The notes under the pieces are model-generated. The model ran no database searches and had not been told where the DNA came from. It worked only from the letters and a program-made list of their open reading frames with translations. Positions 5,347-54,509 of a stretch of 64,000 nucleotides of DNA are shown piece by piece (position 1 is the first letter of the stretch; each line of letters opens with the position of its first letter). A program made the translations under genes and the position numbers. The stretch lies in assembly GCA_000697665.1 (NCBI GenBank), contig KL197709.1:783877-847876 (forward strand), written 5' to 3'. Origin of the DNA: Jaapia argillacea MUCL 33604. Taxonomy: Eukaryota; Basidiomycota; Agaricomycetes; Jaapiales; Jaapiaceae.

Positions 5347-5917
5347 CGCTGGCAGGATATCCAAGGCTTGGTGGACAGCGGAAGATGTCGGTCGATTTAG
5401 AGCCCCGAAGCACTACAGTTCGATGTTGGGTGATAGCCATAGTTGCGGTCGGGTTCCACGGCGAGGAACTGACGGGTTGTGATTAATCCAATCCTATCGC
5501 CGGAAGCGTGTAGATGTCGTGGCTGGGCAATTTCAAAGCCCTGAACACAAGCGGAGCCTTGGAGGATGGCCATATGGCCTTGCCTTCCAGTTTGTCGAGT
5601 CGCTCCCCGGCGAACCCGCGCGGACTAGTGAATGTTGCATTCAAGTTCATCGGCTCGCCCAAAGATAGGATATCAAAGTAAGATACGTATAAGCAAGAAA
5701 TTAATATACAGATGGGGTGCTATGTAGTAAAGGGCGAGTGAGAGCACACTCTACTCCAACCCCCAGAGACGAATCGAATAATACCCATCGAACGATCCGT
5801 CCTCACACAGCGTTGACATTTCGAGCGAGGCTGGCCAGCCGAGCTTGTGCAATCTCTGTTCCCCCAACCCTGTCCCATCGGTGAATGGCAGAGGATCAAC
5901 ACCTGATCGAGAGTGAA
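5347..5917. other. Intergenic between F-box copies B and C, duplicated flank
   Basis: No gene is seen. The stretch 5651-5775 (GCCCAAAGATAGGATATC, then ACGTATAAGCAAGAAATTAA, then GAGTGAGAGCA) recurs at 7481-7600 upstream of copy C. Each unit therefore carries its own upstream region. Confidence 0.6.
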
Positions 5918-7344
5918 TCATAAGCCCAAAAAGCCAACCATATAACGCCTGAGTATCATAATGGACGCACCATGGAACAGAGTTTCATACTTGACGCCGA
6001 GAACATTGCAGGATAAGGATAACTCATCCCTCGACTGCTCCCATATGTTTCCGTCCCCTTCAATGTATAGCGCCTCCAGACATGGCACCGAATCTCGTCC
6101 GCCACTGAAAACCCGGACCAGCCCATCTTTGACAACTTTTTGCACAGCTGAGGTGCTGGGCCAACTCGGATCGACATAAAAATCCTTCAGCTCTTTGAGC
6201 ACACCCATGAGGTCGAGGACGTCGAGTGTTATAAGGGTAGGAGGGAGACGATCTACCATCAAACCAGGTTGGACTGATGTTCCAATGGGAAATCGGGGTG
6301 GTACATTGAAGGCGTTATAATCTATAGCTAGATGTTTGAGTCCCTTGAGTCTCGAGATTTCGAGGACGGTCGGTGTTGTGACCAATCTAAGGCTGATGGC
6401 GAGCCCCTCCAAGACGTCAGCGTATCCGTACAAGGCTTCAACCAGATTTTCTGTGCCATCCTGGCTTCCCACCGAAATGAGTTCCACCCATCGGAGGAAA
6501 GGCAAATCCTTCGGTATCAATGACCCTTCAAAAACGTCAACATTTTGCAGGCGAAGGTGTGTTAGGGCCGGAAGTCGGGGCCATCTGAGGGCTTTGTCCA
6601 CTATTAAACACTCGAGGGAGAGTTCCTCGAGGACTAGAAACTCGATGGTGGCGGGGAAGAACGATAGATCGGGGAACGTGGTATGCTTTGCGCAAATTTG
6701 TAGCTTCCTGAGGTGTGCGAGCACCGTCAAGTCTGGTAAAGATGGGGCGGTTGAAGATGGGAAATTCAACTGGTTGAAGACGATACCCAACGCAGCAACA
6801 TTTGGGCAAACTAGCATCGCGACCGACAGGTCCTCCTGCGGGTTGGGGTACCGTAACATCTTGATGGCGAAGGATAGTACACGGGAGGGAACAAATGGTA
6901 TATTCAACACGGTAAGAGACTGGACGAGGCTACCGAGTTGAGCGTTATCGATCACCGTTCGCACGAACAGATGGAGTCTCCTTGGTGAATCGAGGATAGG
7001 ATTCTTGAAAAGTATCGGAGTTCCCCAGTAATTCCACTCCCTGCTGACTAGGACCACAGTAGCCAAGTGATGGGGTGTGTCCACCGTATTCCAAGCCATG
7101 GGCCGAAGATGGGAGAATATGATGACGAGGATGTCGCATGGAATACGATTGCCATTGGCCTGTCCTGGGGCAACCTCTCCGACACATCGCTAGAATGGGT
7201 CTCAGGAAAGTCGGCATGATCAGTAGAGGCCGTACTACTCACTGATTTCATCCATGTTGCTAGTTCGGCAAGCCTGGCCGTCAAAGTCCTTGGACGACCT
7301 TCACTACTACCCGCTCGTTCGCCATTTGTCCCCGTCCCGTTCAT
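5918..7344 (-). CDS. F-box/LRR-like protein, copy C
   Basis: Two exons, 7344-7243 and 7189-5918, encode 457 residues; the intron (GTGAGT..CTAG) matches copy B. The F-box-like core is GNRIPCDILVIIFSHLRP. It is followed by VVLVSREWNYWGTPILFKNP, leucine-rich repeats and FSGGRDSVPCLEALYIEGDG. It differs from copy B mostly by scattered substitutions and single-codon gaps, so the pair is a recent tandem duplicate about 1.9 kb apart. An in-frame Met 69 bases upstream (7413) could add 23 residues (MELKTDRH), but copy B has no equivalent. Likely role: substrate adaptor of an SCF ligase. Confidence 0.82.
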
Positions 7345-8108
7345 CACTGACAGGATATCCAGGCTTAGCACAAAGATGGACAGCGGGAGATGGCGGTCAG
7401 TTTTGAGCTCCAAAGCAGTTGTGAATAAATTCTAATGTAGTTCGAATGTAGTTTGCAGAGTTGTTCTGAACCCTCACTCGGACTCACCCAAAGACAGGAT
7501 ATCAAAGCGGGATACGTATAAGCAGGAAATTAATATACAGGTGGGGGTGATGGGTAAAAAAGGGTGAGTGAGAGCAATCTCTACTCCGACACCCAGAGAC
7601 GGTAGGCTACTCGAAAACAGCATGTGGGATGATAATGGTATGCAAGAATAAGTCACGAAAGAATGCATCGAAGCCAAACAAACAAACGAAACATGGAGGG
7701 AAAGGACGAGGGGGACGAGCAGGTAAAAAAAAAGGAGAAAGGAGGTGCAGTGTATCTGATACTATAATGACAAACGACGACGACAGAGGAGAGAGTAGAA
7801 GAAAGTGAGGGAAATATATATGAGATGAGTATGGTGCACGAGATGGATGAATAGATAGTTGGGGTGGATATAGGAAAGAGGTTGCGCTAGTAATAAGAAA
7901 TGGGGTAGTCCACGAGGTGTCAACAACATATAGGCGGCAAGGAGGAAAGAAATATATGCGAGGTAGAGATGGATGTTCATACGACGAAAAAAAGTACATG
8001 TGGAGTCTTGATCGTGAGGTCTTGAGAGTTGTGCGAGATGCTAGATGCGAGACGGATGGATGTGTGTATGACGAGAAGGGCAACAACAAAGATGAAAGGA
8101 GGCGGCAA
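7345..8108. other. Intergenic; C-unit upstream flank and WHI3-like 3' region
   Basis: 7480-7600 is the duplicated upstream flank of F-box copy C. 7600-8108 is purine-rich on the plus strand and open for 160 codons on the minus strand, but the translation is low-complexity and unlike any protein. It is best read as the 3' untranslated region of the WHI3-like gene. Confidence 0.5.
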
Positions 8109-19874: not shown

Positions 19875-20622
19875 CAAGACTGTATCGAGACTCCCAAGAT
19901 GGGGTCCTAGCATTAAGCTTGGACTTGCCTTTATTAGACATGGACTCTCCCAAGCGACGATCCACGATGATCGAAAGTCGTGTTCGGGTTGAGGGTTGAC
20001 AAGATCGGAATTCGTAGAATCCAGTCAAAAGCTCAACATTCAACTGACGATGACTGAAAGGTTAAGACGTCGAGAGCTCGGGATCTGGCACCTTCAGTCG
20101 TCCATCCCCGATCTTACAGTGCGTGAATAGCGAACGAAGGGACCGGGAGGAACACCAGCCGTAAATCCGCACATAAGTCACTGTTCAGAACCAGTTTTTC
20201 CACTACGACCCGACGACGACCTTAGCCCATAGCCACTGGGCTTGTGTCATTCACTTACGCAACTTGAACTCACCTCGACGTCAACTTTCTCAGCGACCGT
20301 ATAATCTGATAGCAGAACATTGCTCGCCTTTGAATTCTGCGGATGGAGATACTTACTAGATGCTCAACTACTTGAGCTATACATTCTGATGGAAGGAATA
20401 TCATGATGGCTGGGACCACGAGCGTTCGCGCTTTAATTATTGATCCAGGGATCACTGCAATTAGTACACTCAACATCGATAGGCGTATCCAAACGTGGCT
20501 TCACTAGTACTGCTAGCACAGCTGCACTGCTCGCAATCCTAATAGTACCCATACTTATACGGTACCCTTCCACCATCCCTTGCTCTCGTGTATCCGCCCG
20601 CCAAGCCTTCCGCATCGTGGTC
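19875..20622. other. Intergenic
   Basis: No gene is recognised. The stretch separates the NDUFAF5 homologue from F-box copy D and presumably holds the promoter of copy D. Confidence 0.5.
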
Positions 20623-22208
20623 ATGAGCCCACGAGCAACGAGCAAAAGCCAGCCTCGTCACATAGGCAAGAGCCGCCCTGCAGAGTTGAAGGGAAGGCTT
20701 GCGAAACTGATCGATTGGGGGAAATCTGTGAGTGAGACGGCATCTTCTGGTCGTTGCATTCATCTCTCGTACAGCGTCTCAAGGCTGTCAAAGGCGTTCG
20801 TCCAGAGACAAGCAACGGCCTCCGTATCCCAACCGATGTCCTCATCATCATCTTTTCCCACCTTCGACTCATGGCTTCTACGAGACCAAACACTCTACGA
20901 GACTTGACGACAGTAGTCCTCGTTTCCAGAGAGTGGAATCTTTGCGGAACTGCATTGCTTTACAGGAATCCTTTCATCGATTCACCCAAGAGCTTGTACC
21001 TGTTCATGCGAACAGTGACAACCGATGCTCTGCTTGGTAGCTTCGTTCGGTCCATCGTTGTTTGGAATATGCCTTTAACACCCCCACGAGTACGACCTTT
21101 TGCGGTCAAGAAACGCAGGTATCGCAGAGCGCAGCAAAATTGGACGAATGCCATGCGAGCATGCCCCCATGTCACTGCACTGGGCATCGTATGTAACTCA
21201 TCACCAAACTTCCACCCCTCGATCGCCACATGTTTGCCAGACCTGAAATTATTCACACCATTGAGGCAGCTACGCATCTGCGGGAGGAAGACATGGTTCC
21301 GTAGTCCATTCTTCATCCCCCCCGACATCGTCTTTCCAGTACTCGAGGAACTCTCCCTCGAATGCTTCATATTGGACAACCTCATTGAATGGCCTCGTCT
21401 CCCGGCCCTGAAGCGGCTCCGACTCTCGTGCTGTCACGTCTTCCAGCAGGGGTCGTTGATACCCAAGGGCCTACCGTCTTTACGATGGGTTGAACTTGTG
21501 GGAGTAGGCACTCATATGAGAGCTGACAATCAGATTGAAGCTCTGTATGGATACGCCAACGTGCTGGAGTCGCTCGCCATTACTGTGGCCTGCTGGACCT
21601 CAACTCATGCCGTACTAGAAGTCTCGAGATTTAAGGCATTAAAGCACCTTGCCTTGGATTTCCAGGCCTTCTTCGTTCCACCCCCCATCGCCATCGGAGC
21701 ATCAGTTCAGCCGGGCTTGACTTTGGATCGTCTACCTCCGAAACTCAAGACCCTTGACTTCTTAGACCTGACCGGGACACTCCGGGCTCTGAATAACGCA
21801 CACATAAGACAGAATTGGCACGATACGTCGGCTGTACAGGGAGACATACGAGATGCCATGATTCGAGTTCTAAGTGGCGGGCGAGACTCGGTGCCAAGTC
21901 TGAGAGGGTTGTACGTCGAAGGAATGGGAACGGTTTGGACGCAGTGGAGAGAGGAACTGTCCTTGTCTTGCAACGCTCTGGATGTCAAGTTTGAATCTCT
22001 GTTCTACGGTGCGCCCGTCGTCGGGGTTCTTTCCGTTAACTCATCTTCCCCCCTTCTTGTAGGTGACGAACCTCGAGTTTATAAGGATACAAAAGAGTTG
22101 GGCAAAATGAGAGCTCGCAACATAGGCTGGCCCTCCTTGCTTCTGCTGGGGATGATCTGCGTTCCTGGCGACGCTACAGCATCCTTGTCTTTTGTAGATG
22201 CATGCTAG
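20623..22208 (+). CDS. F-box/LRR-like protein, copy D
   Basis: Two exons, 20623-20727 and 20775-22208, encode 512 residues; the 47-base intron (GTGAGT..ACAG) is in the same place and phase as in copies A-C. The F-box-like core NGLRIPTDVLIIIFSHLRL is followed by LTTVVLVSREWNLCGTALLY, leucine-rich repeats (LRQLRIC, LEELSLEC, LKRLRLSC, LRWVELV) and LSGGRDSVPSLRGLY. It is inverted relative to A-C and about 13 kb away, yet it shares more with A than with B or C. The C-terminus after SLFYGAP is longer than in the other copies (about 65 extra residues). The start MSPRATSK is the first Met in frame with the aligned block. Probable SCF substrate adaptor. Confidence 0.82.
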
Positions 22209-29098: not shown

Positions 29099-31414
29099 GG
29101 TGATATGTATGCGGGCAGTAGACGAAGATTTGTTGGATGAGCCATCGCTGAGGATCAAGATTTTATATGTAGCCTCGTTCGCAATCCTGTCGTCGTCGCC
29201 TTATTCAGCACCACAATGTCATGCACCTGCTCCCACCAATTGAACTTGGGGCAATTTCGGTCTCCCTTGTTCTGACACTGCAGTTTGGACGGCCTCAGTC
29301 GATATCTGGAATTCGTATGGTGTGCTAGAGGCTGTTATTGGATGGCCGCTTCCAAGAATACCACGGTGGGGAACATCCCGTGGAAATTCTGGTCATCTTC
29401 ACCGTTTCCCAAGCAGATGATTGGTTCGAAGAGTTATGGAATTCAAGTTGGTCCATCTGCTCACCGAGTACAGTGACTGGAACCTGGTTTGAACCCTATC
29501 GATATCGTATGAATATCTAGGATGTGATCATCCTGGCAATCCTCTCAATTCCTGTCGAGTCATACCCTGAGAATGGTCTACGTATGTTCGATGGCAATGC
29601 GGTTCTCGTCCCCCTGCCAAGTTCTGATATCCGCCTGGTCTCTTTCCAACATTGACCATTCCTCATGGACTCAGGCTTTCGCGGGAAGCATCTCAACAGC
29701 GCAGGAGATAATCTACGCTCTTCACCGCGACGTTCGACCCTATCTTTCGGCTCCTCGCTGCACTCCGGGGTGGCTGGACCTCCACGATGAGGATAGTATC
29801 CCCACAGACCCCGCTCCCGTAGGATTAGTACACAGTCTCCTGCAGTCGAGATCTTACTTGGGGTTTTTTCTTCAAAGCCCCATCGCAACTCTGCGCAGCG
29901 ACGTAATCTAGGACCAACCCATGCCTCAACCTCATGATTTGATTCCGGTGCATTTAGCGACGTAGGATCTCTTCGCTTGGCCCACGATAGAGCCGTAACC
30001 CATGTTATACCCGAGCAATCCCGAGGAGATCGTAGTGAGTCCTTCTTGCATAATAACCAGGCCAATCCAATCTACTTTGAACGTATATCTACTCCTCAGA
30101 AAACCCTGCCCTATGCAACGTGTTAGCAGTATCTTTCCCGTAACAATGCACTCGACGTTGTCACCTTCGAATACCAAACAGACTCTGTTGAAGGCGATCC
30201 CAGATGCAGACACACTATTTCTCCCGTCGACTAGCATCTACTGCGCCCACGGCCACGGCTTATCCTTCGATCTTGGAAATATCTCTCCAGAGGAAAAGTC
30301 TCAGCCTGACGAGGTCGAATTATCCCAATATCTCGTCGACCTGCAGCTCTCTATCGGATGAGACGCTCCGACGTTCGCTAGTTGTGTGCAAACACATTCA
30401 GAGATCAGCATTCGAAGAGGGTTGCGAGTTGACCCAACGATCCAATCTATCTCAGCGTTCATCGATTTCTTTCTCAGACGTTTGGAGGCTATCTGAAGAG
30501 ATGACATCCGTGACCAGGAACGCATACCTACTGGGGCGTATAGTTTTCCCTATTTTCTTCTTCTGCAATAGTACGTAGTTCGCTGTATTGGTGGAACTCC
30601 TACAGCTTTTACTGCCAGTTGATGTATCTTAAATCGTAATTAGGCACTTATTATTGTCCAACGATAAGCTGCACATAAGTACTTACTTCAGTCAGCTAGT
30701 AACTCCGCGAAATCGCGAGGTCCACTTGGCTCCGCCGCTCCGATGCTTCTGGCAGCTCAACATCCGAGTCCACAGTATCTATCTCCTCCCGATGCCCCTG
30801 CGGTGGCCAGTTTCCGGATATGAATGTTCAATAGTGCACAATCGATAGGCATCCACTGGGTAGCTGGCATATTGCAGTTTGGGACAAGTCCGAGGATCGC
30901 CAACTCCCTTCCTATCCCGGTCTTCTCACTGGCAGCTTCCTGGAGTTATTGGATGAAAACTGATGACAAGTCAGCCTCAGCTGCCCGTCATTCACCTCTC
31001 ACACTTCGTCACATGGGTACTGTCAAAATGAAGTGTCTTCTAGCCGTTCCAGGGGCTACGATCGACAGGTGGATAGGGCTCATCCAAAACACGCTATTTG
31101 AGCAATGTCAGCCCTGCTTCTTGTGCGGCCGTTCCCCAAAATAACATTGTTCCACTTAATGTCTTACGCTGTATGGCATCACGACGTGGGTATCTGTTGA
31201 CCTGAACACGCTATCGTTGCAATGTCAGAGCTGGTTCTCGCTCGGGCCATTGGTTGCTTCTCCAATATCCATGAGAGTGCCGATACTTTTTCACGAACAG
31301 AAGGCGCTTCAGGCTCAACCCAACTTTGTGCCTCTTTCAAAAGCAATGGAATCGTGAACCGTATATCTTGGAGCCTGGATGGTGGATCATCATCTTGGTC
31401 TCCCTCCTCGCACC
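29099..31414. other. Gene-poor stretch upstream of the P450 pair
   Basis: 29290-30590 on the plus strand contains coding-like pieces in changing frames (for example around 29521-29650 and 30111-30360). These may be a decayed or unrecognised gene; see findings. 30900-31414 is the upstream region of the first P450 and is repeated before the second (34160-34693). It includes GTATATCTTGG about 58 bases before the ATG, a TATA candidate. Confidence 0.45.
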
Positions 31415-33846
31415 ATGGACAACTTTCAACCCCTCTATGCTCTCGTTGGAGTCGCTGTTCTATATGTGGTGTACCGTCGCTTCACCCGTATATCTCTCGC
31501 TGATATACGTGGACCGGAGCCGGAGAACTATCTTATAGGTGTGTGTTCACCCAGAACCCGTTCTCATAGATCTGCTCGAACGATATTTCTTTTACAGGCA
31601 ACATGCGGCAACTCCAGCAGGGCATAGCTGGAGTACCGGACTTCGAGTGGACGAACGCATATGGGGGTATAGTCCACCTCAAAGCGCCTTTCGGGGTGAG
31701 TTAGTCGTCCTCGACAGCCTCTTACGTCCTCATGTGTTCTTGTCAGGAGGACAAACTTTTGGTCTCTGACCCCAAAGCTTTACAATATATCTTGTCGACT
31801 TCAGGATATAATTTTACCAAATCCCCAGATCGTCGAGAGCTGACTCGAATTCTAATCGGAGAGGGTCTCATCTTCGTAGAAGGTGGTGGCTACCACATTG
31901 TTTTCAGTTGGAACGTGCTTACATTTTACCTGTGTGTCAAGGTGACGATCATAAACGGCATCGAAAGGTTATGTTGCCAGCATTTGGAGGCCCCGAGTCG
32001 AAAGCTCTCTTCCCCATCTTCCGCTCCACTGTTCAGCAGGTATGGTCCGTCCGAACGGCCCTAAGATTTATTCGCTGACTACCATCTGTTTTCAATAGCT
32101 CATGGAGCTCTGGAAAGATTCTATTTCCAATGACGGGGGCCAATCTTCAGTTCTGAATGTCCCTTTCTGGCTCGGCCGTGCCACTCTCGATGCGATCGGA
32201 GAAGGTGAGTAACTCACTCTGCACCATCATCTTCTGTATCTCAGCTCGCGCCCTCTAGCCGCATTCGACTATAAATTTGGTGCGCTTGACGGGTCCGATA
32301 GTGAGCTGGGCCCAGCCTATAACAATCTATTGTTTGTATCTCTTGGTTGCCCAGCACCAACTCCATACTCACTGCGTCCGTCGATTTTCAGTTCCGACGC
32401 CTTCGCTCTCCCGTCAACGTTGAAGATATTCATCCAGAGCGCCACCAAGTATATCCCCATCCCCGTCATCCGGGCGGCTTACAACAAGCTTCCAGTTGAG
32501 AGCCTGAAACGCATCCGTGGTACCTCGGATCTTGCAAACAAAGTGGCAAAAGATCTTGTCGAGACGAAGGGTGAAGCACTTTTGCACGGCAAGGCCAGTC
32601 GGGATGTCATGACTCTTCTGGGTAGGTTTCCTCTCGAGATATGATGGCGTTTCTTAGTTTCCACTCATGTCTCCGTTAGTCAAGGCAAATGCGTCGACGA
32701 ATGCGAAAGCACAACTATCTGAAATTGAGATGTTGTCTCAGATGCGGTACGCCTTCCACCGTTAGCACCGTGCCTTACCATCTTGATCTAACCCTTGTTC
32801 GATAGTACTCTCATGCTTGCGGGGCATGAGACCAGTGGTATGTAACTACTCGCAAAACATCAGGGACACGCATCTGAAATTCTTTGACAGGAAATAGTCT
32901 GGTAAATAATGTCTCTTTTCTTGACATTTATATCCTCCCAAACTCTTCATCCCTCTTTGCGATTAGACCTGGACCCTGTGGGAACTTGCAAAGAATCCAC
33001 AAATGCAAAGTCGACTTCGAGATGAAATTAGATCTGTAGAAAGGAATGTACGTCAACGAGGTGACACTGATTTCACCCTCGCAGACATCGAGGGCATGTC
33101 TTATCTCCAAGCCGTTCTCAAGGTGTGGGGTTCTCATCTGATATCATCAGGTGTGACTGAGCGACCGAAACTTGTTTCAGGAATCCCTCCGCTTCAATCC
33201 AGTCGTCCTCCATATGTTCCGTGAACCTCTTAAAGACGATGTTCTTCCACTTTTCAAGCCAATTATGACATATTCCGGAAAGCTGGTGCATGAAGTTCCA
33301 ATTCCTGCAGGGACCCGGCTGATCCTCTCGATCTCTGCGTACAATCGGTTCGACCCCCCAACTCTGTGTCCTTTCCCTCGTCTAATTTTCCTATTGTAGC
33401 GATCCCGACATCTGGGGCCCCGACTCTCATACCTTCAACCCCGATCGCTGGTTGACGGGCCATGGAAAGGAAAATAACGGCCCCTCCATTGGAGTCGTTG
33501 GCAATTTGTTCGTTGGTTTTTTCTAGCTTTACGAGGGCATCAAACCCTGACCATCGCCCACTAGATTGACGTTTTCGAGCGGTATCCGATCATGCATTGG
33601 GTGGCGTTTCGCGTAGGTCCTACGACTTTCTTAAGCAGCCCAATTGACTCAAGGGTATCTTCCCGTAGGATGGTGGAGATGCAGACCTTCCTCGCAGACC
33701 TTGTGAATAACTTTGAGTTTGCCCTCACTGAGGAGAGCAAGAAGATCACCAGACAGGCAGCTCTCGTGATGGTGCCGATGGTTGGAGGGAAGCTTGATGA
33801 GGGCGCTCAGCTACCTTTGGCGGTTTCCATTGCGCCCAGAGACTAG
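31415..33846 (+). CDS. Cytochrome P450, tandem copy 1
   Basis: Fifteen exons join to 543 residues: 31415-31538, 31598-31695, 31747-31882, 31942-32039, 32099-32204, 32259-32331, 32392-32621, 32680-32746, 32806-32837, 32891-32901, 32967-33122, 33181-33347, 33400-33507, 33565-33612, 33669-33846. An N-terminal membrane anchor (LVGVAVLYVVYRRF) precedes RGPEPENYLIG. The I-helix motif AGHET is at 316-320, the ExxR motif ESLR at 378-381, and the heme loop FSSGIRSCIG has Cys479. It should be an ER-bound monooxygenase using a separate P450 reductase; the substrate is unknown. Exon 10 is only 11 bases, and exon lengths are identical to those of the next gene. The start is the Met shared with that copy (MDNF). 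Confidence 0.93.
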
Positions 33847-34693
33847 TAGCGGTAGAGGCTTGATGGATGGGGAGGACATTAATTTCGATCGTTGTTCTTA
33901 CAGTAGTATAATCTGGTTTTGATCTGGTTGGTAACTTCCAAGCAACTTCCAAGTTGTGCAAACTCTGTGTGACGGGCGTACCATTATTGCCACGTGGATC
34001 GAAGCCTTCCCTGACCCCGTCACCAATATTCGGAGATGGTGGCGGAGTCCATTCCAGTACTTTGGTCGCAATCTCTAACCGCCGTTGGAACGTTTGGAAG
34101 TTGGAATCGCTATCCGATGTCGAGGCTCCAATGTGTCAGTGAACCCAAGTCGCCAGCCTGAGTTTCCTTCCCATCCTGGTCTTCTCAATGACCTAGTAAA
34201 CTTCCTGGAGAAATTGGATGAAAACTGATGACAAGGCAAGTTTCTGGCCTCCGTGCTCCTCCCACACATCATCACATGAACACTGGTCTGAGTTTGCGCT
34301 ACCTCGGGGTCTTCTAGATGTGTAGGGTTTGCCGATCGGCTGTGGGCAGAACTCTGCCAATACATTTGCTTCTCTTGCGGCTGTCGCCCCAAATCCAAGA
34401 GGTTTCATTCGATGTCTTGCCCTGGAGCTCCCTGGACGAACCGGCATCACAAGGTTGCTAGCCGTCGACCTGAGCCCGCTAGAACTAGACTATCGTTGGG
34501 ATGTCGAAGTTGCTTCTCCTATGGGCTGCCTGCGTCTTCTCCCATATCCATGGGACCACAAAATATTTTTAAAGAATAGAAGGCATCTTGGGCTCAACAC
34601 TTCCTATGTCCCGTTTTGTTGATATTGGAACTATGCCAAGTATATATCTTGGACCAAGATGGTGAAGGAGCTACTCGGCTTCCTCCTCAAACC
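33847..34693. other. Intergenic between the P450 copies
   Basis: The second half repeats the upstream region of copy 1: CTTCCnATCCnGGTCTTCTCA, ATTGGATGAAAACTGATGAC, and TATATCTTGGA. AGTATATATCTTGG at about 34637 is the likely TATA box, 56 bases before the ATG. Confidence 0.6.
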
Positions 34694-37129
34694 ATGGACA
34701 ATTTCTATCCTCTCTATGGGCTCGTTGGATGTGCTGTGCTCTACGCGACTTACCATCGCTTCACCCGTATATCCCTCGGCGACATCCGAGGACCTGAACC
34801 AGAGAGCTTTCTTCTCGGTGAGACTCGAATCTGGATGTTCCTTTCATCTTGACGAATTTACTCTCGGTAGGCAACCTGCGCCAACTCCAGCAAGATACAG
34901 CTGGACATGCAGATTTTGAATGGACGAACCGTTACGGGGGCATCGTCCGCATCAAAGGGCCGTTTGGGGTAAGCCGAGTTGCCCTTGCGTCTCTCTATAG
35001 TGCCCTCACTGTTTCTTATAGGAGGATAAACTGATGATCTCTGATCCCAAAGCCTTGCAATATATCTTGTCAACTTCTGGTTATAATTTTATTAAGTCTC
35101 CAGACCGGCGGGAGCTCACTCGAGCTCTGACTGGCGATGGCCTTCTCTTTGCCGAAGGTACTGGCGCACACTCCTTTGGGACTGCGAGGTGCTCATTTTA
35201 TTTTCGCTCCTTTCGAAGGTGAGGATCATAAAAGACACCGCAAAGTGATGTTGCCCGCATTCGGAGGCCCGGAGTCGAAGGCTCTCTTCCCCGTCTTCCA
35301 TTCGACTGCCGAGCAAGTAAGATCCACATAAGTATCGAAGCTCTACTCTCTCGCTCATTCTGCTCTGTTAATAGCTCGTCACCAGATGGAAAGAATGTAT
35401 CAACAACGATGGGGAGCCATCTTCCGTCTTGAATGTTCCATTTTGGCTTAGCCGTGCTGCTCTGGACGCAATCGGAGAAGGTAAGCATCCGACCTTCCAA
35501 ACTTTTACATTCTCTTAGTTGGTGCAATATAGCTGCTTTCGACTATCAATTCGGCGCCCTCGAAGAGGCCGACAGTCAACTAGGTCAAGCATACAATAAC
35601 CTGTTGTACGCGACTTTCCTCCGCCATCTTGTCACATCTTGGTGTTCACTGTTAGTTGACGTCCAGCGCCGATGCCTTCGCACTGCCTTCGTCGATGAAA
35701 GTATTTTTCCAGAACATAACCAAGTACATCCCCATCCCTCTCCTCCAAATGGCTTACGGGAAGTTACCAGCGCCGAGCCTGAGACGGATACGCTCTACCG
35801 CTGAATCTGCCAATCAAGTTGCAAAGAATCTCATCGAGGAGAAGGGTGAGGCTCTGTTGCATGGTAGGGGAAATCGCGATGTGATGACTCTGCTTGGTAA
35901 GGAGCCTTCCGAAACCATTGTCAGATTGGCAGGTAACACTTCCCGCAGTCAAGGCGAACAAGTCCACAAATGTGAAGGCCCAACTGTCCGAGGGAGAGAT
36001 GTTCGCTCAAATGCGGTATGCTTTCCGTCGTTGTCCGACATGGACTTTGGCCTAACCACCTCGATCGCGTGAATAGTACAGTCATGCTGGCGGGACATGA
36101 GACCACTGGTAGGTCCTTCCAAGCCAAATCATGTTATTAGCCACATCTAATGTTCATTTTCGTAGGCAATAGTTTGGTAAATACCTCTGCTGTCCTCACG
36201 TCCTCCCCAAATCAACGGAGTCCCTCTGACTTGGCCAATAGACTTGGACTCTATGGGAACTGGCAAAGAATCCGAAAATTCAAGCCCGACTTCGTAATGA
36301 AATCAGAGATACTGAAGTGAACATCCGTCAGCGAGGAGGCTCTGATTTCACACTTGCAGATATTGAGGGCATGCCATACCTTCAAGCTGTCCTCAAGGTG
36401 GGGCCTATCATTCCCCGCGCCACTCAGCGCTATTGGTTGGTGGCTGATATTTCTGCCAGGAATCGCTTCGCTTCCATCCAGTCGCCCTCCATATGCTCCG
36501 CCAGCCCGCGAAGGACGAAGTTATCCCCCTTTTCAAACCCATCATGACAAAATCTGGCAAAATGGTACATGAAGTCGCAGTGCCTGAGGGTACACGATTG
36601 ATTTTATCTATTCCCGCATATAACCGGTTTGTCCAAGTCTATCTTATGCCTCTTTTATCTGAATATTCTTTCATAGTGATCCAGACCTCTGGGGCTCCGA
36701 TGCCCATACCTTCAACCCTGATCGCTGGTTGGACGGCCACGCCAAAGGGAACAACGGACCCTCGATCGGCGTTGTTGGCAACTTGTACGCCCATGTTCCG
36801 CTTCTTTCCGTTTCAGTGAGATATTGACCCTTCCATATCAGATTGACGTTCTCGAGCGGGATCCGGTCTTGTATTGGATGGCGTTTTGCGTAAGTGGTAG
36901 TATTTCTTCGGATCGCACACCCAACTCAACCGGCTGCACGGTCGATTTTAGGATGGTCGAGATGGAGACCTTCCTCTTGAATCTCGTCAACAACTTTGAA
37001 TTCTCGCTGACAGACGAGAGTAAGAGGGTTACTAGGCAGTCGGCTTTGGTTATGGTGCCGATGGTCGAGGGAAAGCTTGACGAGGGCGCTCAGCTGCCCT
37101 TGAAGGTTACAATCGCACCAAGAGATTAG
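34694..37129 (+). CDS. Cytochrome P450, tandem copy 2
   Basis: Fifteen exons give 543 residues: 34694-34817, 34871-34968, 35022-35157, 35219-35316, 35375-35480, 35533-35605, 35667-35896, 35949-36015, 36077-36108, 36166-36176, 36242-36397, 36460-36626, 36677-36784, 36842-36889, 36952-37129. All fifteen exon lengths equal those of copy 1, while introns differ in sequence and length. It has an N-terminal anchor (LVGCAVLYATYHRF), AGHETTG, ESLRFHP, and heme loop FSSGIRSCIG (Cys479). Differences from copy 1 are scattered substitutions, so both may be active with diverging specificity. Product: ER monooxygenase of unknown substrate. Confidence 0.93.
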
Positions 37130-45166: not shown

Positions 45167-45684
45167 GGAAGTTGACCTGACTCGCTGCTACGGTCCACGT
45201 AGACGTCTTTGTCCGTTTGGTTGTCATTTCTGAATAATAAATCTTCGAAGATGGTCCGGTGCGAGACTGTCTACCCCTATATCTCGCTGTCGATCCCATA
45301 ACTATCATGCTCAGCCACTGCTCACGCAGGGGCGAATCTATCTCTGGGGCTTCCCTCACAGTACCCGAAAGAGAACACTTCAAGTGGTACGGTGCTAAGT
45401 TACACTCAGATCGCAAGCAACGTGGGCAGAATCATACATATTCTGGGCCTTCTGTTTCTTGCCTTGGAGAAGGAGAAATGCGGGTGGTATGCGGGCCACA
45501 ATTTGCGGGCCATTTCGTGAGTCACGATAAACGCACGATACATGGATAGCTAGTAAACCACCGCCAACGGATTCTGATGTTTCTATTTTAGGGAATTCGG
45601 GTTTGCCCAAAGGGAGCGACGATCCCCATCGGACTTTCAATTTCCAGCAGCGTATATGTAACCCCTCTCCAACAGTGAGCCACT
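45167..45684. other. Intergenic, HNH1 upstream region
   Basis: No gene is seen. 45560-45655 is related to the orphan fragment at 24341-24500. ATATGTAACC about 35 bases before the HNH1 ATG sits where that fragment has its TATA box. Confidence 0.5.
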
Positions 45685-47066
45685 ATGCCTTTAGCAGGAC
45701 CGTACCTCATCTCGCTGTGCGATGCTGCGCAAAAATCAGGCTTCTCGTTTGGTGTCGTCTCACGAGAAGGCAGCCAGACTTCAACCTTCGACGTAGACGC
45801 CGCCAAACTCGTCCACAGCATCGTAACATTTTCTCCAGCTTCGGAAAGCGTGGCGATAGACTTTCTTCGGGAATTTCAGAAGGTTCCGGGCATCACATAT
45901 TTAGGCAATGTTCCGTTCTTGTGCAAACACTCATTCTCTTGACTGACGATACTATTGTTGTACAGTTCAACCGGTCGTGCTCCTGAACTCTGAGTTCGAG
46001 TCGCAGCAGTGGGCACAAGAGATTTTGGTACTTTTGCGCGATCGCGAGACAAATGAGCTCGATGAGGAGCTCAAACCGCTTTGCGATCTCGCCAGCAAAT
46101 ATTTAAATCATCTTCTCATCGCTGGTATGCCATCACGTCCGCTTGTTTGACTTGTGCTCAATTCTGATTGGTATAGCTCGAAATCCGGGGGGTAAAAAGA
46201 CTCCCCAAGACTCCACAAATCCCACTCCCGATCTCATCCGTTTACATTCCATAGAAGACCTGTTGAGTGAAGCGACTACTGGCAGAAAACAATCTGCATT
46301 GAAAGAACTAGTGGGTCATTTCATCCGATAGGCTACGCCAGTCCCTTGAAATGCGTGGTTGAAGGTGTACAGACGGGACGGATATCATTGCGCCCTCTCC
46401 CACTATTCGTTCAAACCACCCGGAAGGTTTGTAGTCCCCAGATGCGCGCACATACTACCATTTTCTTTCAGTAATAAGGTGCGTAGAGTATGTTTTGTTT
46501 TGTTGTAGTATTACCCACTTTCCAACCTCCGCTAGCCCTCCACACTGCACGCATTGGAAGCCTTCACCGGGAACGCAATCACCGCCGAAGGCGTTCAAGG
46601 GAATATCAATCATCCGTCGAACGCATTTAACGTGCAGCGCGACGCACAAGTCTCGTTTGATCAGCTCGCATGGGGAATTGAGGCCCTACAGCAGCCTGGA
46701 GGACGGGTAAGCCATCTTGTATTTTCTATAGTTCCTACCCTCCGAATTCTTTTTCAACAGTGGAAGTACTTCTTCCGTGACATCCGCAATTACGCAGCTA
46801 CAGTGCGCCTCAATGATGGCGACGAAATTGCATTTTGCAACGGAAAGGCTGGTCATATAATCGATCCACCCGACCCGTCATTCTGCAACTTCAAACTTGC
46901 ACTTGCTCGTATCGTGCATGCATCTGGGGTTTCGGATATCATTGACGAACTCTATGGCTATGATGACGATGATGAGGAGATTGTGAACCAGCCTGCTTAC
47001 CTGGGTGGGCCATTTGTTTCAGATGATGTTCTTATGCGTAGACTCCATGATCGCCTGCCGATTTGA
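45685..47066 (+). CDS. HNH-domain protein, copy 1 (open)
   Basis: Six exons join in frame to 367 residues: 45685-45904, 45966-46124, 46177-46310, 46365-46478, 46536-46706, 46761-47066. The middle is the fungal HNH_2-type nuclease domain: YRRDGYHCALS (Cys180), VPRCAHILPFS (Cys198, His200), then FTGNAITAEGV and INHPSNAFN...FDQLAWGIE. An acidic tail follows (YGYDDDDEEIVNQ). Intron 1 has a GC donor (TTAG then GCAATG), where copy 3 has GTAATG. Intron 3 is 54 bases and contains the only stops. The residue at the last histidine position of the motif is Gln247 (AQVSFD), while copies 2 and 3 read AHESFD; nuclease activity may be lost. Family function in fungi is unknown. It faces PPOX1 tail to tail. 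Confidence 0.75.
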
Positions 47067-47370
47067 GGTGTACTGGAGATGGGAATTCTCAGCGACTCTC
47101 AGAGACTTTTTTAGACTTTTTATAGGTTTACGTCGACTCATAGAGACTTCTATTCCCTCATCCGGATCCTTGCAATCCGAGCCCGTGCTTGTCGAAGGCT
47201 TTCCGTGGATTCCAGCAAGACGGGCTTCAAACCTCATCGTGATGACCGTGACGGCGACAAAGAATGTACCTTCCATTGCCATGGTCTGTTTCCTGGAATG
47301 CTATTGTCGTCTGCGTGTACCACTGCGTCTAATCTCTTCATTGATCAATTTCACCACAGTTTTCAGAAAC
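47067..47370. other. Intergenic, HNH1 / PPOX1 tails
   Basis: No gene is seen; convergent 3' regions, with a counterpart at about 50830-51221. Confidence 0.5.
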
Positions 47371-48336
47371 TTAAGCCCTTGATCCTATATACTTCATACA
47401 CACAGCCGTAACAAGCACACCAGCCGAAAACGCCCCCACCAATTTCCATTCTTCCCGTTTCCGAGTTTCAACAGAACCTTGCTCCTTCTTCAAGCTCAAG
47501 TTCTTCACGGACTTCGCATCCACCGTCCGAGCTCGCCAATTGTCACTGCTATTAAATGCGACACTCGATTTACCGGCATTAAGCAACGCCGGCAACCCAT
47601 CCAAACTTTTCGCATTGTGTCCTTCCCAGTAGATTTTCAGTCCCTTGTCATGGTGATAGGTCGGAGCAGGGGCGGCACAATCGAAATTCTCTTTGCGGGT
47701 GGCCATACTATGCAAGAGCTCACGGTGTCCGAGGAATTCGTAGTATGGGACTGCGTAACCACAACTCTGCGACCAAAGGGATGAGGATAGTGTGGAAGTT
47801 CGTGAGTACGGTGGACTTACGGTGCCGACTTTGTATATGTTTATCATAATCACTGCTCGAGAGCCTGGGTTGCGGGATTCAGCAGGAATGAGGGCGTTGT
47901 ATTCAGGTGTGTCGAATTCGTGGACCGTTCCTGCGTGCGTGAGTGCATGGGATTCAATTTTGGGGCTCACCAGTGTGTAGGATGATTTAGACTAACCTGT
48001 ACCGAACAACCGAAGGATACGAGGGGCTCCCTCGAAGGCCATGAACATGATAGTCACTCGCCCGTTCTCCCGTATGTGAGCGATCGTCTCACATCCTACC
48101 CACACGGACTTTCAGCTCTCAATTCTGATGGTGACGAGGAGGGTCTTACCGCTCCCACTCAAATCCTCATACCAGACGGTACTGTTATCAATGATACGAA
48201 AACAATCAGGTGCACCCTTAGGTGAGACATTGACATGTCCTGTTGCTTTGAGGGGGGCTGTGGCTACCCAAAAACATTGCTGTTTTTGGATCCAGGCCAG
48301 CATTTCGGGTGGGATGGAGTCAAAGAACTTGCCCAT
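47371..48336 (-). CDS. PNPOx-fold (pyridoxamine oxidase-like) protein, copy 1
   Basis: Four exons, 48336-48150, 48095-47997, 47930-47821 and 47766-47371, give 263 residues. The split-barrel flavin-binding family pattern is clear: IPPEMLAWIQKQQCFWVATA, HVNVSPKGAPDCFRIID, TVWYEDLSGSGCETIAHIRE, NGRVTIMFMAFEGAPRILRL, SRAVIMINIYKVGTSCGYAVP. It is a putative PNPOx-like protein and not the B6-pathway enzyme. FMN, F420 or heme have all been seen in this fold, so the cofactor is open. A C-terminal hydrophobic segment (LVGAFSAGVLVTAVCMKYIG) suggests a tail anchor. All exon lengths equal those of copy 2. It is divergent from HNH2 with about 470 bases between, and convergent with HNH1. Confidence 0.88.
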
Positions 48337-48807
48337 CGTGCTACCTTGATCAGAGAGGGGGGCTGTGGTGACTTGCTTTGATAGTGTGGGTTGGGATGTT
48401 GGGGAGTTTACCACTTTGCGGAGGATATATGTGCCGTTCTGAGACTCCCACGAAGCAGGGGGGAAACCTCCTGGGTGAGATATGTGAAGCACAACCGATT
48501 GGATACGGGGTGTCCTAACTAGCCCCACTCTTCCCCGGTGTTCGTTCATGATCACTCATGTCAGGGAAGACACGTTCCCTTCTCGAAAATCAACGGGGTG
48601 ATCCATGCGGGGAAGGGTGCCTGTGGCAAGGAATGGTGCCTTGTCATGCACCACATCGAAAAGGTGAAAATGGCTCCGAGTCACCTTGAGGCTTGTGAAT
48701 CTGAAACCGCCGGGTGTTTACCAGTGGGGAGGGAAGAGATAAGGAGTTGAGCGCCACCTGGCTCCGCATCTGACTTCCCATTATGTAACGCCTCTTCCAG
48801 AACCACC
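48337..48807. promoter_or_regulatory. Shared upstream region, PPOX1 / HNH2
   Basis: The stretch corresponds to 52198-52649 between PPOX2 and HNH3 (GGTTGGGATGTTGGGG, TCTGnGACTCCCACGAAG, TTCTCGAAA/GAGAAGAAGGGAACG blocks). It therefore belongs to the repeated module and drives a divergent pair. No gene lies inside. Confidence 0.5.
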
Positions 48808-50831
48808 ATGTCTTTAGCAGGGCCGTACCTCTTGGCAATAGACTTCCTTCCTGAATTTCGAAAGGTGTGGGGCATCAAACATTTAGGCAACTTCCTGCGC
48901 ATGCGCCTGCTCATTCTCTTGACTAACGATACTGTTGTACAGTCAAACCAGCCGTTCTCTTGCGCTCCGAATTTGAGCCACGACAACGGCGGAAGAGATT
49001 TTGATATTTTTGCGCAATCGCGAGAAATCGTGACTGAGCTCGAGGAGGAGCTGAAACTACTTCGCGATCTCGCCACTGAATATTGTCATCGCTGGTATGT
49101 CAGTGTGCTCACTTGCTTGTCTTACGCTTGATTCCAATTGGCGTAACTCGAAATCCGGGGGATAAAAAGACTCCACAAGAGTCCCCACATCCCACTCCCG
49201 ATATCGTTCGTTCACATTCCGTCGAAGAACTGTTGCGTGAGGCGACTTTTGGCAAAAAAAATCTGCATTGAAAGAGCTAGTGGGTGAATTCATCCGACAG
49301 GCTGCACCATCTGGTTTAAATTCGCGCTTGAAGTTGTGCAGACGGGACGGATATCATTGCACTCTCACCCGCCTTTCTTTCAAACTACCCGGACGTTTTG
49401 TAATCCCCAGATGTGCGCATATACTACCATTTTCTTTCCGTGATAAGGTGCGTAGAATATGTTTTGTTTTATTGTAGTATTCTCCATCTTCAAACCTCCG
49501 CTAGCTCCTCACACTGCGTGCGTTGGAAGCCTTCACCGGACACGCAATCACCACCGAAGACTTTCAGGCGAATATCAACCATCCTTCTAACGCTTTGAAC
49601 ATGGAGAGCAACGCGCACGAGTCGTTTGATGAGCTCGCATGGGGAATTGAGGCCCTCCAACAGCCTGGAGGACAGGCCAGCCATCTGGTATCTTCTGCAG
49701 ATCCTACCCTCTGAATTCTTTCTCAACAGTGGAATTTTTTTTCCCGTGAAATCCGCATTTTTGCGGCTACACTACACCTCGACGACGGAGACGAAATCGT
49801 ATTTTGCAACGGGAACACCGGTCATATGATCGATCCACCCAACCCGTCATTCTACAACCTCTACAGTCATGTACTGGTCCTTGGGACAGCACCTGTCCTT
49901 GGGACAATCGCTTGCTACTCGCCCAGTTCTCATCGCGCTGCTACAAAATTTTGTAAGGACCAAGCTATATGTATATACTAAGTGTCTGTAGAATTTGGGG
50001 GCATTCGGCTTTGTGCTCGATGCTGTGGGCAATGCCCGAGGGGTGAAATCGGCCATTTCTGGCAGATTTGACTTTTGTTCAGGTGCTCGACCACCACAAA
50101 TGGGGGACTTGGTCCTCATTTTGGTCTCATTTGACAACTAATGAATAAATGCATTTATTTGAGACCAATCCATCTCAGTTTGGGGGTGCAGTATCCCCCA
50201 GAAATTAAGAAAACANACCGAGGCCAGTGTCCCAAGGACGATGGCCGCGACAAGTGTCACATCACACTCGACCCTCCAAATCTCTCACCTCAAAACCCAT
50301 CGTGGTGATACTGATCTCTCCTCTATTTTCCCTGCAATGACTGAAGATGTGTCCCAGGGAATATATATCCACTTTCCTTGACATTCAGAGCCAATTCAGA
50401 GCCGTGGTGAGCTTGAGGCTTGCGCGTGATATTGTCACATCTGTCCCAAGGACCGGTAACTGCGCAATTCCGACCTGTCGCCAGATTCTGCTTTCTGTCA
50501 GTTCAGTACCCAACATATTTTCTCGGAGATTTGGTGGAATAGACCTTAATATACCTTAGAAAGTTTCGGCCTCTTAGCTTTTACGAAATCGTGCAAAGAA
50601 GTGGTGTGGGAAGCCAAATCCAATGTCGTGTCCCAAGGACCAGTACATGACTGTAACTTGTTGTTGCTCGTGTCATGCATGCATCTCGGGTTTCGGATAT
50701 CATTGCTGAACTCTATGGTGACGCGCGTGATGATGACGAGGCAATTGTAAACCAGCCTGTCTACCTGGGTTGACCGTTTGTTTCAGATGATGTTCTTTTG
50801 CGTAGAGTTCGTGACCCATCTGTCGATTTGA
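48808..50831 (+). pseudogene. HNH-domain protein, copy 2, broken and interrupted by a MITE
   Basis: The whole family can be followed: MSLAGPYL, EFRK, the GC-type donor of intron 1, RNPGDKKTPQES, LCRRDGYHCTLTRLSF, RCAHILPFSFRDK, FTGHAITTEDF, NMESNAHESFDELAW, DGDEIVFCNGNTGHMID, then VSDIIAELYG. About 45 residues are missing near the N-terminus relative to copy 1. One later donor site has lost its GT, and a 790-bp element splits the last exon. At least three separate defects are visible, so it is dead in its present form. It keeps the AHESFD histidine that copy 1 lacks. Confidence 0.75.
49864..50653. mobile_element. MITE, Tc1/mariner-like, 790 bp, in HNH2
   Basis: It has perfect 25-bp terminal inverted repeats at 49864-49888 and 50629-50653 (CAGTCATGTACTGGTCCTTG, then GGACA), flanked on both sides by TA (49862-49863 and 50654-50655). 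Removing it restores continuity with copies 1 and 3 (TTCTACAACCTC to ACTTGTTGTTGCTCG). The CAGT start and TA target site point to Tc1/mariner or pogo-type mobilisation. No transposase frame is present, so it is non-autonomous. The word GTCCTTGGGACA (or its complement TGTCCCAAGGAC) occurs at both ends and again near 49894, 50228 and 50441. An N lies at 50216. Confidence 0.88.
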
Positions 50832-51221
50832 GGTGTACAGGAAATGGGAAGTCTCAGCGAATCTCAGAGACTTTCGTTCCCTCGTCCAGATTGTTGCAAT
50901 CCAAGCTGGAGTGAAAGGCGGGTTGGTGCCGAGACCACAGGCCCCCAAACTCAGTCTCCAAGGCTTCCCATGGCTTCGAACAAGCGCATTTCCAACCTCA
51001 TTGCGACGACGACGAATCTTGTACCTCAGTGGCCTCCCACAGCGTCTGTTTCTGGGATGCCATCTCCCATGCATCGCTGCTGCTGCCCCTTGTGTGGTTT
51101 CGCAGGTAATTAGGCCGTCAGTATTCATTCTACCACTCACCGCATTTTTAGAGATCTCACTCCGAATCTGGTGACTGTGAAATTTTCAAGTCCGTTCATT
51201 GACGTCTCAGCTTGGGACGAC
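50832..51221. other. Intergenic, HNH2 / PPOX2 tails
   Basis: The stretch matches the HNH1/PPOX1 intergenic region in part (GGAAATGGGAAGTCTCAGCGA, TTGCAATCCAAGC). No gene is seen. Confidence 0.5.
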
Positions 51222-52197
51222 TCAAGCCCTGATTCCCATATACATCATGCACACAGCCGTAACGACAACGCCGGCTGAAAACGCCACCACCAATTTCCAT
51301 TCTTCCCGCTTCCGAGTTTCAACAGGACCTTGCTCCTTCTTCAAGCTCAAGTTCTTCACGGACTTCGCACCCACCGTCCGAGCTCGCCAATTGTCACTGC
51401 TATGAAACGCGACACTCGATTTACCGGCATTAAGCAATGCCGGCAACCCATCCAAACTTTCCGCATTGTTTTCTTCCCAGTGGATTTTAAGTCCCTTATC
51501 AGAATGATAGTTCGGAGCAGGAGCGGAACAATCGAAATTCTCTTTGCGACTGGCGACGGTGTGCAAGAGCTCACGGTGACCGAGGAATTCGTAGTATGGG
51601 ACTGCGTAGCCGCAACTCTGCGATCAAGGGATGAGGACAGCGTGGAAGTTCGTGAGTATGGTGGACTTACAGTGCCGACTTTGTATATGTTTATCATAAT
51701 CACTGCTCGAGAGCCTGGGTTGCGGGATTCTGAAGGGATGAGGGCATTGTATTCAGGTGTGTCGAATTCGTGGACCACCCCTACGTGCGTAAACACATGA
51801 AATTCAATTCGAGAGCTCACAATTGTGTAGGATGATTTGGGCTTACCTGTACCGAACAACCGAAGGATACGAGGGGCTCCCTCGAAGGCCATGAACATGA
51901 TTGTCACCCGCCCGTTCTCCCGTATGTGAGCGATCGTCTCACATCCTACCCACACGAACATGAACAGGATTTTCAGCTCTCAATTCTGATTTTGGCGAGG
52001 AGGGTCTTACCACTCCCACTCAAATCCTCATACCAGACCGTGCTGTTATCGATAACATGAAAACAATCAGGTGCACCCTTAGGTGAGATGTTGACGTGTC
52101 CTGTTGCTTTGAGGGGGGCCGTGGCTACCCAAAAACATTGCTGTTTTGTGATCCAGGCGAGCATTTCCGGTGGGATGGAGTCATGAAACTTGCCCAT
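51222..52197 (-). CDS. PNPOx-fold (pyridoxamine oxidase-like) protein, copy 2
   Basis: Four exons, 52197-52011, 51945-51847, 51780-51671 and 51617-51222, give 263 residues with exon lengths identical to copy 1 (187, 99, 110, 396). Motifs: IPPEMLAWITKQQCFWVATA, HVNISPKGAPDCFHVID, NGRVTIMFMAFEGAPRILRL, NIYKVGTSCG, and the C-terminal hydrophobic anchor LVVAFSAGVVVTAVCMMYMG. The frame is fully open and substitutions from copy 1 are few, so both copies are probably functional and recent. The substrate and cofactor are unknown. It is divergent from HNH3. Confidence 0.88.
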
Positions 52198-52649
52198 CGT
52201 GCTGCTGGGAGAGGAGGGCTGTGGTGACTAGTGGTGTTGTCAGTGCTGGTTGGGATGTTGGGGATTTACGGCCCACCACTTTACCGGCGATATATACGCC
52301 ATTCTGGGACTCCCACGAAGGCCCTTGTGAGTTATGTGAAGATGAACTGATTGATGCGGGATATCCTAACTATCCCCACTCGTTCCCTCATGATTACCCC
52401 TTCCCCCAATCACTCCATTGACTCAGCCCCGAGAAGAAGGGAACGTGCTTTCATTAGCGCGACCGCCCATGGCAAATGAAACCGTGTCGCATTCGTGCAC
52501 CACATCCAAAAGGTAAGAATGACTCACCTTGATACAGTCGTGAAAAACGGGGCCGGTTGTTTACTGGGGACTCTGAATTGAAGTGATGAATCGATGGGGA
52601 TTCGCATTTGACGTCCTATTTTGTGACGCCTCTCCAGCAGCAAACCACC
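52198..52649. promoter_or_regulatory. Shared upstream region, PPOX2 / HNH3
   Basis: Counterpart of 48337-48807 in the first module. No gene is seen. Confidence 0.45.
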
Positions 52650-54011
52650 ATGCCTTTAGCAGGGCGATGCTGCGCAAATCTCGGGCTTCTCGTTTGGCGT
52701 CGTTTCACGAGAAGGCAGCCACACGTCAACTTTCAATGTTAGCACCACCAAACTCATCCGCAGCATCGTAACGTTTTCTCCAAGTTCGGAAAGCGTGGCG
52801 ATAGAGTTTCTTCAGGAAGTTTAAAAGGTGCGGGGCATCAAATATTTAGGTAATGTTCCGTTCATGTGCAAACCCTCGTTCTCTGGTTGACGAACCATGT
52901 TACGGTTATTATTACAGTTCAACCAGTCGTGCTCCTGAGCTGCGAGTTCGAGCCGCAGCAATGGGCACATGAGATTTTGGTGTTCCTGCGTAATCGCGAG
53001 ACAAATGAGCTCGACGAGGGGCTCAAACCACTTTGCGATCTCGCCACTGAATATCTAAACCATCTTCTCATCGCTGGTATGCCATCACGTCCGCTTGCTT
53101 GACTTGTGCTCAATTCCGATTGGTATAGCTCGAAATCCGGGGGGTAAAAAGACTCCCCAAGACTCCACAAATCCCACTCCCGATCTCATCCGTTTACAGT
53201 CCATAGAACGCCTGTTGAGTGAAGCGACTACTGGCAGAAAACAATCTGCATTGGAAGAACTAGTGGGTGATTTGATCCAATAGGCTACTCCAGCCCCTTG
53301 AAATATGTACTTGAAGGTGTACAGACGGGATGGATATCATTGCGCTCTCACCCACTATTCTTTCAAACCACCCGGAAATTTTGTAGTCCCCAGATGCGCG
53401 CATATACTACCATTTTCTTTCCGTGATAAGGTGCGTAGAGTATGTTTTGTCGTAGCATCCTCTAACTTTCACATTCTGCTAGCCCCTCATACTACGTGCG
53501 TTGGACGCCTTCACCGTGCGCGAAATCACCGCCGAAGTTGTTCAGGCGAATGTCAACCATCCTTCAAACGCATTTAACGTCGAGAGCAACGCGCACGAGT
53601 CGTTTGATCGCCTCGAATGGGGAATCGAGGCCCTGCAGCAGACTGGAGGTAAGCCATCTTGTATTTTCTATAGCTTCTACTCCCCAAATGCTTTCTCAAC
53701 AGTGGAAATATTCTTTCCGTGAAATCCGCAACTGCGCAGCTACAGTGTGCCCCGAGGATGGGGACGAAATCGTCTTTTGCGATGGGAACACCGGGAGTAT
53801 GATCGGTCGACCCATCCCGTCATTCTGCAATCTCAAACTTGCTCTTGCTCGTGTCATGGAGGCGTCTGGGGTTTCGGATATCATTACCGAACTCTATGGT
53901 TACGATGACGATGATGAGGAGATTGTAAACCAGCCTGTTTACCTGGGTGGGCCGTTCGTTTCAGATGATATTCTGTTGCGTAGACTTTATGACCGCCTGC
54001 CTATCTCTTAG
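52650..54011 (+). pseudogene. HNH-domain protein, copy 3, broken
   Basis: It can be aligned end to end with copy 1: MPLAG, VQPVVLLSCEFEPQQWAHEI, RNPGGKKTPQDSTNPTPDLI, VYRRDGYHCALTHYSF, RCAHILPFSFRDK, NVESNAHESFDRLEW, WKYSFREIRN, DGDEIVFCDGN, and YGYDDDDEEIVNQP to the stop. Compared with copy 1 it has lost sequence near the start, has an interrupted first exon, and is shortened at one exon edge: about three breaks. Intron 1 here has a normal GT donor (TTAG then GTAATG), which supports the GC-donor reading in copies 1 and 2. The last exon is still open and well conserved, so decay looks recent. Confidence 0.72.
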
Positions 54012-54509
54012 AATACCTTCTCCCATGCCTCGCTGCTGCCCTTGTGTGAACTACACTTGAGGTTCACATATGTTGAGTATTCCGCTTGGTGCTCGCTATG
54101 CATCTGAGAACAGACCTTAGGAATCATCACTCTTGCTTCCGTTCGTTGTCCTTGGGTTACTTCTGATGGACATCTTATTCATACAGAACCTCCACCGGAC
54201 ATCAGGGTCACATAGGATCAGTGCCAAAAGAGACTGAGACACGAAAATAGAAACACTCATCCAAACCAGACAGACACAGGTCATCCATATTTGAGGATAG
54301 CAAACCCTTGAGCAGATCGGGATGTGCATTTGTACCCTCAAACAAATGGTTGTATTGCAGGGTCGACCGTGCAACGGTCCTGAATATTATCGAGAATCCC
54401 GTAAATAGTACATCCAACCAAATACAAGCCTCACCGAACCCTATCCGTCCCGAAAGAACTTCCTCGTCTCCAAGTTCATCTGATCAGATATTAAAATCAA
54501 GGTAGCTCC
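54012..54509. other. Intergenic between HNH3 and cdc14
   Basis: No gene is seen; the 3' regions of two convergent genes. Confidence 0.5.

Follow-up and report, generated by a model that had tools for sequence, protein, structure and literature searches.

An array of two alternating gene types lies in the 64,000-nucleotide window analysed here, which covers positions 783877-847876 of contig KL197709.1 in the 43.7-Mb genome of Jaapia argillacea MUCL 33604 (assembly GCA_000697665.1, 95 contigs). This contig is called C1 in the following, other contigs are numbered likewise, and positions without a contig number refer to the window. HNH_2-type genes (HNH) occupy the plus strand, genes for a protein with the PNPOx_N domain (PPOX) the minus strand. 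The order HNH1 (+), PPOX1 (-), HNH2 (+), PPOX2 (-), HNH3 (+), first proposed in a reading made from the letters alone (the sequence-only reading), was verified together with strands and coordinates (Table 1). The long blastn tracts presented identities of 84.5 % for HNH1/HNH3, 79.0 % for HNH1/HNH2, 77.2 % for HNH2/HNH3 and 87.3 % for PPOX1/PPOX2, all far beyond chance. The array probably goes back to an old segmental duplication of this locus and represents no functional module; the PPOX copies were kept, and HNH2 and HNH3 became pseudogenes.

Table 1 Features of the HNH/PPOX array, in window positions
Feature	Position	Strand	Description
HNH1	45685..47066	+	HNH_2-type gene with five exons and two stops, or with six exons should the 54-nt stretch be an intron; rest of the frame open
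Tract of HNH1 near-identical to HNH3	46109..46348	+	likely gene conversion; contains the common TAG, common TGA at its edge
54-nt GTGGGT...GAAG stretch of HNH1	46311..46364	+	possible intron; holds TAG 46329-46331 and TGA 46347-46349
PPOX1	47371..48336	-	four-exon gene with PNPOx_N (PF01243), product of 263 aa (amino acids) with a hydrophobic C-tail
PPOX1-HNH2 intergenic block	48337..48807		471 bp
HNH2	48808..50831	+	pseudogene
794-bp element within HNH2	49862..50655	+	27-nt perfect terminal inverted repeats, TA ends
PPOX2	51222..52197	-	open, 263 aa, 90 % identical to PPOX1
PPOX2-HNH3 intergenic block	52198..52649		452 bp; 77 % identical to the PPOX1-HNH2 block
HNH3	52650..54011	+	pseudogene
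HNH-PPOX spacer remnant 3' of HNH3	54013..54048	+	matches 51057-51096 with a score reached by 0 of 300 shuffles; marks where the duplication ends on the right

Both PPOX copies were confirmed to be open and to have identical exon lengths (187, 99, 110 and 396). Two further family members are encoded on C7 and C41, with 61 % and 58 % identity to PPOX1, respectively. Gene models of these paralogues, fitted by hand to PPOX1, have likewise first exons of 187, 99 and 110, so that the matching lengths probably characterise the whole family and are hardly informative on the duplication. Between PPOX1 and PPOX2 a synonymous divergence (dS) of 0.258 and a nonsynonymous divergence (dN) of 0.052 were observed, an omega of 0.20 (bootstrap 0.11-0.32), and 40 of the 70 differences were located at third codon positions. 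In neutral simulations of point mutations both copies stayed open with a probability of 0.0014 at a divergence K of 0.129 per lineage (half of dS) and of 0.018 at K = 0.077 (half of the intron value). A neutral lineage would be expected to collect about 47-79 nonsynonymous changes, whereas about 31 were observed for both lineages summed; neither copy has therefore evolved freely. PPOX1 and PPOX2 diverged under purifying selection. A conversion tract between the two copies was not significant (P 0.066 and 0.16).

The HNH copies had a different fate. HNH2 has lost part of its 5' end by an in-frame deletion and carries indels in exon 2, a 1-nt loss near 49251, the 794-bp insert and a TGA near 50770. 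In HNH3, exon 1 has lost 20 nt and contains a TAA near 52822, and exon 5 lacks 5 nt at its end; a TAG and a TGA are shared with HNH1. The claim that two of the three HNH copies have decayed thus holds for HNH2 and HNH3, while HNH1 is broken only if the 54-nt stretch remains unspliced. Synonymous divergences were alike, 0.26 for PPOX and 0.29-0.37 for the HNH pairs. The omega values of the HNH pairs were 0.37 (0.25-0.51) for HNH1/HNH3, 0.47 (0.32-0.65) for HNH1/HNH2 and 0.60 (0.42-0.87) for HNH3/HNH2, and the codon-position patterns of the two pairs with HNH2 differed from that of PPOX (Fisher p = 0.047 for HNH1/HNH2 and 0.015 for HNH3/HNH2). With two open PPOX genes on the one side and at least two broken HNH copies on the other, the proposed uneven decay was supported; the contrast is weakest for HNH1/HNH3.

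The state of HNH1 depends on the 54-nt stretch. It contains the only two stops of this copy, both common to HNH3. Its removal preserves the frame, its length falls into the range of the other modelled introns of the array (52-66 nt), and its ends, GTGGGT and TTGAAG, are the same in all three HNH copies. Differences within the stretch, counted at first, second and third codon positions, were 2, 4, 3 for HNH1/HNH3, 7, 3, 4 for HNH1/HNH2 and 6, 5, 4 for HNH3/HNH2, small numbers without a third-position excess. Outside the stretch, the changes specific to HNH1 were distributed as 19, 12 and 33, a clear third-position excess (33 of 64, p = 0.002). Such an excess was not present in the changes specific to HNH2 (40, 28, 36; 36 of 104 third, p = 0.43), nor significant in those of HNH3 (16, 16, 23; 23 of 55 third, p = 0.12). 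As the excess persists, HNH1 may be intact or may have been so until lately. Judged by these counts, HNH1 alone among the three copies bears clear signs of constraint, and it may still be read if the 54 nt are spliced out.

A tentative alternative, compatible with the duplication reading and to be taken seriously even if we do not favour it, is that all three HNH copies are dead and that gene conversion spread the common stops between HNH1 and HNH3. From 46109 to 46348 these two copies have 11 mismatches in 240 positions, a number as low as in none of 5000 shuffles, and intron 2 within this tract is identical in 52 of 54 positions; gene conversion between HNH1 and HNH3 is likely here, and the common TAG and TGA are located in and at the edge of the tract. 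The gene model of HNH1 requires a GC donor for intron 1. HNH1 has a glutamine at a position where HNH2 and HNH3 have histidine, which we take to be the third histidine of the HNH motif. The domain PF13391 (HNH_2) scored 30.9 bits in a piece of HNH2 and 25.2 bits in a piece of HNH3, above the cut-off of 21, but only 19.2 bits in the HNH1 piece, and the whole HNH1 model matched no Pfam family at E<=0.001. Against a common death stand the intron-like size and the conserved ends of the 54-nt stretch, its lack of a third-position excess and the excess kept elsewhere in HNH1. In HNH2 the stretch contains no stop; an exon would be expected to be open likewise, and in this respect the observation counts against a working HNH1.

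Selection for an additional PPOX dose may have fixed the duplication, with the HNH genes hitchhiking and decaying afterwards. This supposition, likewise compatible with a plain segmental duplication, appears rather doubtful to us. Both PPOX copies are open and constrained and HNH2 and HNH3 are broken, as it would require. However, constraint after a duplication is no proof of dose selection at the time of fixation; a divided function or a slow loss could give the same pattern.

The sequence-only reading had further proposed that a nuclease-fold gene and its neighbour form a functionally linked or a hitchhiking pair with a duplicated divergent promoter of 450-470 bases. Two blocks of this kind are indeed present between the head-to-head genes. 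They align over 414 columns with 95 gap columns and a K of 0.27, thus they are not more conserved than the synonymous sites of PPOX (0.26) and less than the PPOX introns (K = 0.15). HNH1 has no such block: its clear similarity to the other copies begins about 28 nt before the ATG. Further upstream, with this leader excluded, the matches to the blocks were shuffle-like, their scores being reached by 133 and 212 of 300 shuffles; with the leader included, 13 and 16 of 300 shuffles reached the score. The intergenic block, 77 % alike in its two copies and absent at HNH1, was rejected as evidence for a linkage.

A functional link between HNH and PPOX was not supported outside the array either. Apart from the array, PF13391 matches were found on C22, C13 and C67 in the scan of the genome, whose two other PPOX genes are those of C7 and C41. 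No HNH gene was detected beside either of these two paralogues: the 9.5-kb stretches around them gave no match at E<=1 with protein queries, which are weakly sensitive, and a Pfam scan of eight reading frames around them gave no HNH family. Among seven bacterial relatives of PPOX, no HNH was detected on the contig of the PPOX gene, in scans that are not very sensitive and with two contigs of only 4 and 6 kb; two of the seven genomes had a PF13391 match, each on a contig that differs in length from the one with the PPOX gene. We consider it very unlikely that the two proteins act together as a module that was co-amplified from a shared divergent promoter, and the evidence leans against it. Two adjoining head-to-head pairs with related intergenic blocks and the constraint still visible in HNH1 would suit a module. 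Against this, each of the two head-to-head pairs, the only ones with a block, has a broken HNH gene, HNH1 stands head-to-head with no PPOX, and the blocks have diverged as far as synonymous sites; the neighbourhoods of the paralogues and of the bacterial genes add to this within the limits of the scans. Still harder to credit is that HNH1 continues to cooperate with one PPOX copy while the HNH repeats serve as a recombination cassette that lets strains differ in their number of PPOX copies. In other settings HNH nucleases often behave as selfish elements, and an HNH copy is present at every junction of the array; that the gene is a mobile nuclease which caused the duplication by its cutting is nevertheless the least credible proposal, as a DNA search of the genome finds this HNH only in the array (four matches, all on C1). 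Taken as a whole, the array has the look of common gene duplication and loss, not of a machine made of two genes.

Most likely, the array began as two HNH direct repeats flanking a single PPOX gene. Unequal exchange between the repeats would have duplicated the intervening stretch, which yields n+1 HNH and n PPOX copies. Purifying selection then acted on the diverging PPOX copies, HNH2 and HNH3 turned into pseudogenes, and HNH2 now contains a young, TA-flanked element with inverted repeats. The array has n+1 repeats and n passengers, as unequal exchange predicts, and its outer flanks are unrelated to the inner ones: upstream of HNH1 the intergenic block is missing, and downstream of HNH3 only a 36-nt remnant of the spacer is left. 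Copies of the 794-bp element were listed at C45:99070-99863 (3 mismatches in 793) and C9:1037936-1038722 (86 %), and all three copies have TA ends. Since the element differs from its C45 copy by 0.4 %, far less than the array copies differ from one another, it probably entered HNH2 long after the duplication.

Several observations weigh against a plain duplication by unequal exchange followed by free decay. The middle copy HNH2 should be a hybrid, grouping on its left with HNH3 and on its right with HNH1. The site patterns did not reveal this hybrid, which conversion may have blurred; HNH1 grouped with HNH3 on the left, and the right was mixed. In 1020 columns, 125 sites supported HNH1 with HNH3, 71 HNH1 with HNH2 and 63 HNH2 with HNH3, and a run of the last kind at 46635-46652 had a P of 0.008; these groupings compare the three copies with one another. 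Because they contradict the prediction, conversion or another route has to be added to unequal exchange, and because conversion blurs the record, and may also have spread the stops, the route to the array is an inferred one. All HNH pairs have an omega below 1, so free decay of the HNH copies did not set in at once, and the codon-position pattern of HNH1/HNH3 was not significantly different from that of PPOX (Fisher p = 0.31). The adjacency scans were insensitive, too: the Pfam scan of the genome listed only one of the three HNH copies of the array, and protein queries found other HNH_2 genes weakly or missed them. An old segmental duplication with kept PPOX and decayed HNH copies nevertheless remains the reading that we consider probable. 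It is a small, clear case of unequal fates after co-duplication and otherwise ordinary. Co-amplified neighbours need not be a module, and PF01243 alone need not indicate a vitamin B6 enzyme.

The array is followed by a CDC14-type gene; two exon stretches of the gene upstream, glycoside hydrolase-like in appearance, gave no Pfam family. The window contains other local duplications. Positions 3827-5412 and 5804-7417 are 86.6 % identical, a divergence about as large as in the HNH/PPOX array, and weaker relatives of this pair are located at 2067-3518 and 20563-22017. Three of four frames tested in this gene group gave weak F-box-like or leucine-rich repeat matches below the cut-off. The regions 31211-33846 and 34490-37129 are 67.7 % identical, and their reading frames resemble cytochrome P450.

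The 794-bp element resembles Tc1/mariner-type non-autonomous elements in its TA ends and its 27-nt inverted repeats beginning with CAGT. The HNH genes are tentatively assigned to HNH_2 (PF13391) by the domain above cut-off in pieces of HNH2 and HNH3; HNH1 deviates by its lower score and the glutamine in place of histidine. Searches of the literature for HNH together with pyridoxamine in Agaricomycetes, for an expansion of HNH families in basidiomycetes and for HNH endonuclease pseudogenes in basidiomycetes yielded nothing. An HNH endonuclease with a Ka/Ks above 1 is mentioned among genes transferred into fungi in one report (PMC11708051), and PF13391 appears in a presence/absence table of fungi in another (PMC6525431).

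PPOX1 matched PF01243 with 41.2 bits (cut-off 28.1) as its sole Pfam family; the C-terminal domain PF10590 was not matched. The motif EFWxxxxxRxHxR was present in none of the four PPOX-family proteins of this genome. Without this domain and this motif, PPOX1 was rejected as a true pyridoxamine/pyridoxine 5'-phosphate oxidase. Among the genome matches listed there is one PF10590, on C3, adjoining the best PF01243 match, so that the true oxidase is likely encoded outside the array; another PF01243 match is at C11:254189-254527. Two PF01243-only proteins of Saccharomyces cerevisiae, YLR456W and YPR172W, are reported neither to form pyridoxal 5'-phosphate nor to bind flavin mononucleotide (FMN) (PMC4556617). 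PPOX1 resembles this family in having PF01243 without PF10590, and all four proteins lack the motif; the likeness is one of domain content, and the proteins studied here have a hydrophobic C-tail. All four also matched TIGR04025, the MSMEG_1061 family of PPOX-type flavoproteins (best E 3.3e-11), but PPOX1 reached 42.7 bits against a cut-off of 170 and is thus a relative rather than a member. Sequence searches of the PDB found no match of PPOX1 at E<=1, and the best E values of the other searches, 0.17 and 0.14, were not convincing either. A structure model of one bacterial relative (mean pLDDT 69.5, pTM 0.63, last 20 residues poor), matched split-barrel proteins, best 2htd with E 1.3e-7, and binders of FMN, F420 and heme were among the matches. 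The seven bacterial relatives (L058-L064, from a pattern scan) are 42-54 % identical in their best segment. In five of them the protein stops at SIDGLP/SIDGLA or a few residues beyond and has no hydrophobic tail; the remaining two run into a contig end or lose the frame. In this comparison the tail is confined to the four proteins of J. argillacea, which have about 70 extra residues and a hydrophobic end (Kyte-Doolittle maxima 1.79-2.22, 19-residue window). By domain content and tail, PPOX is probably a cofactor-binding PF01243-only protein rather than a vitamin B6 enzyme, tethered to a membrane if our guess about its hydrophobic C-tail is right.

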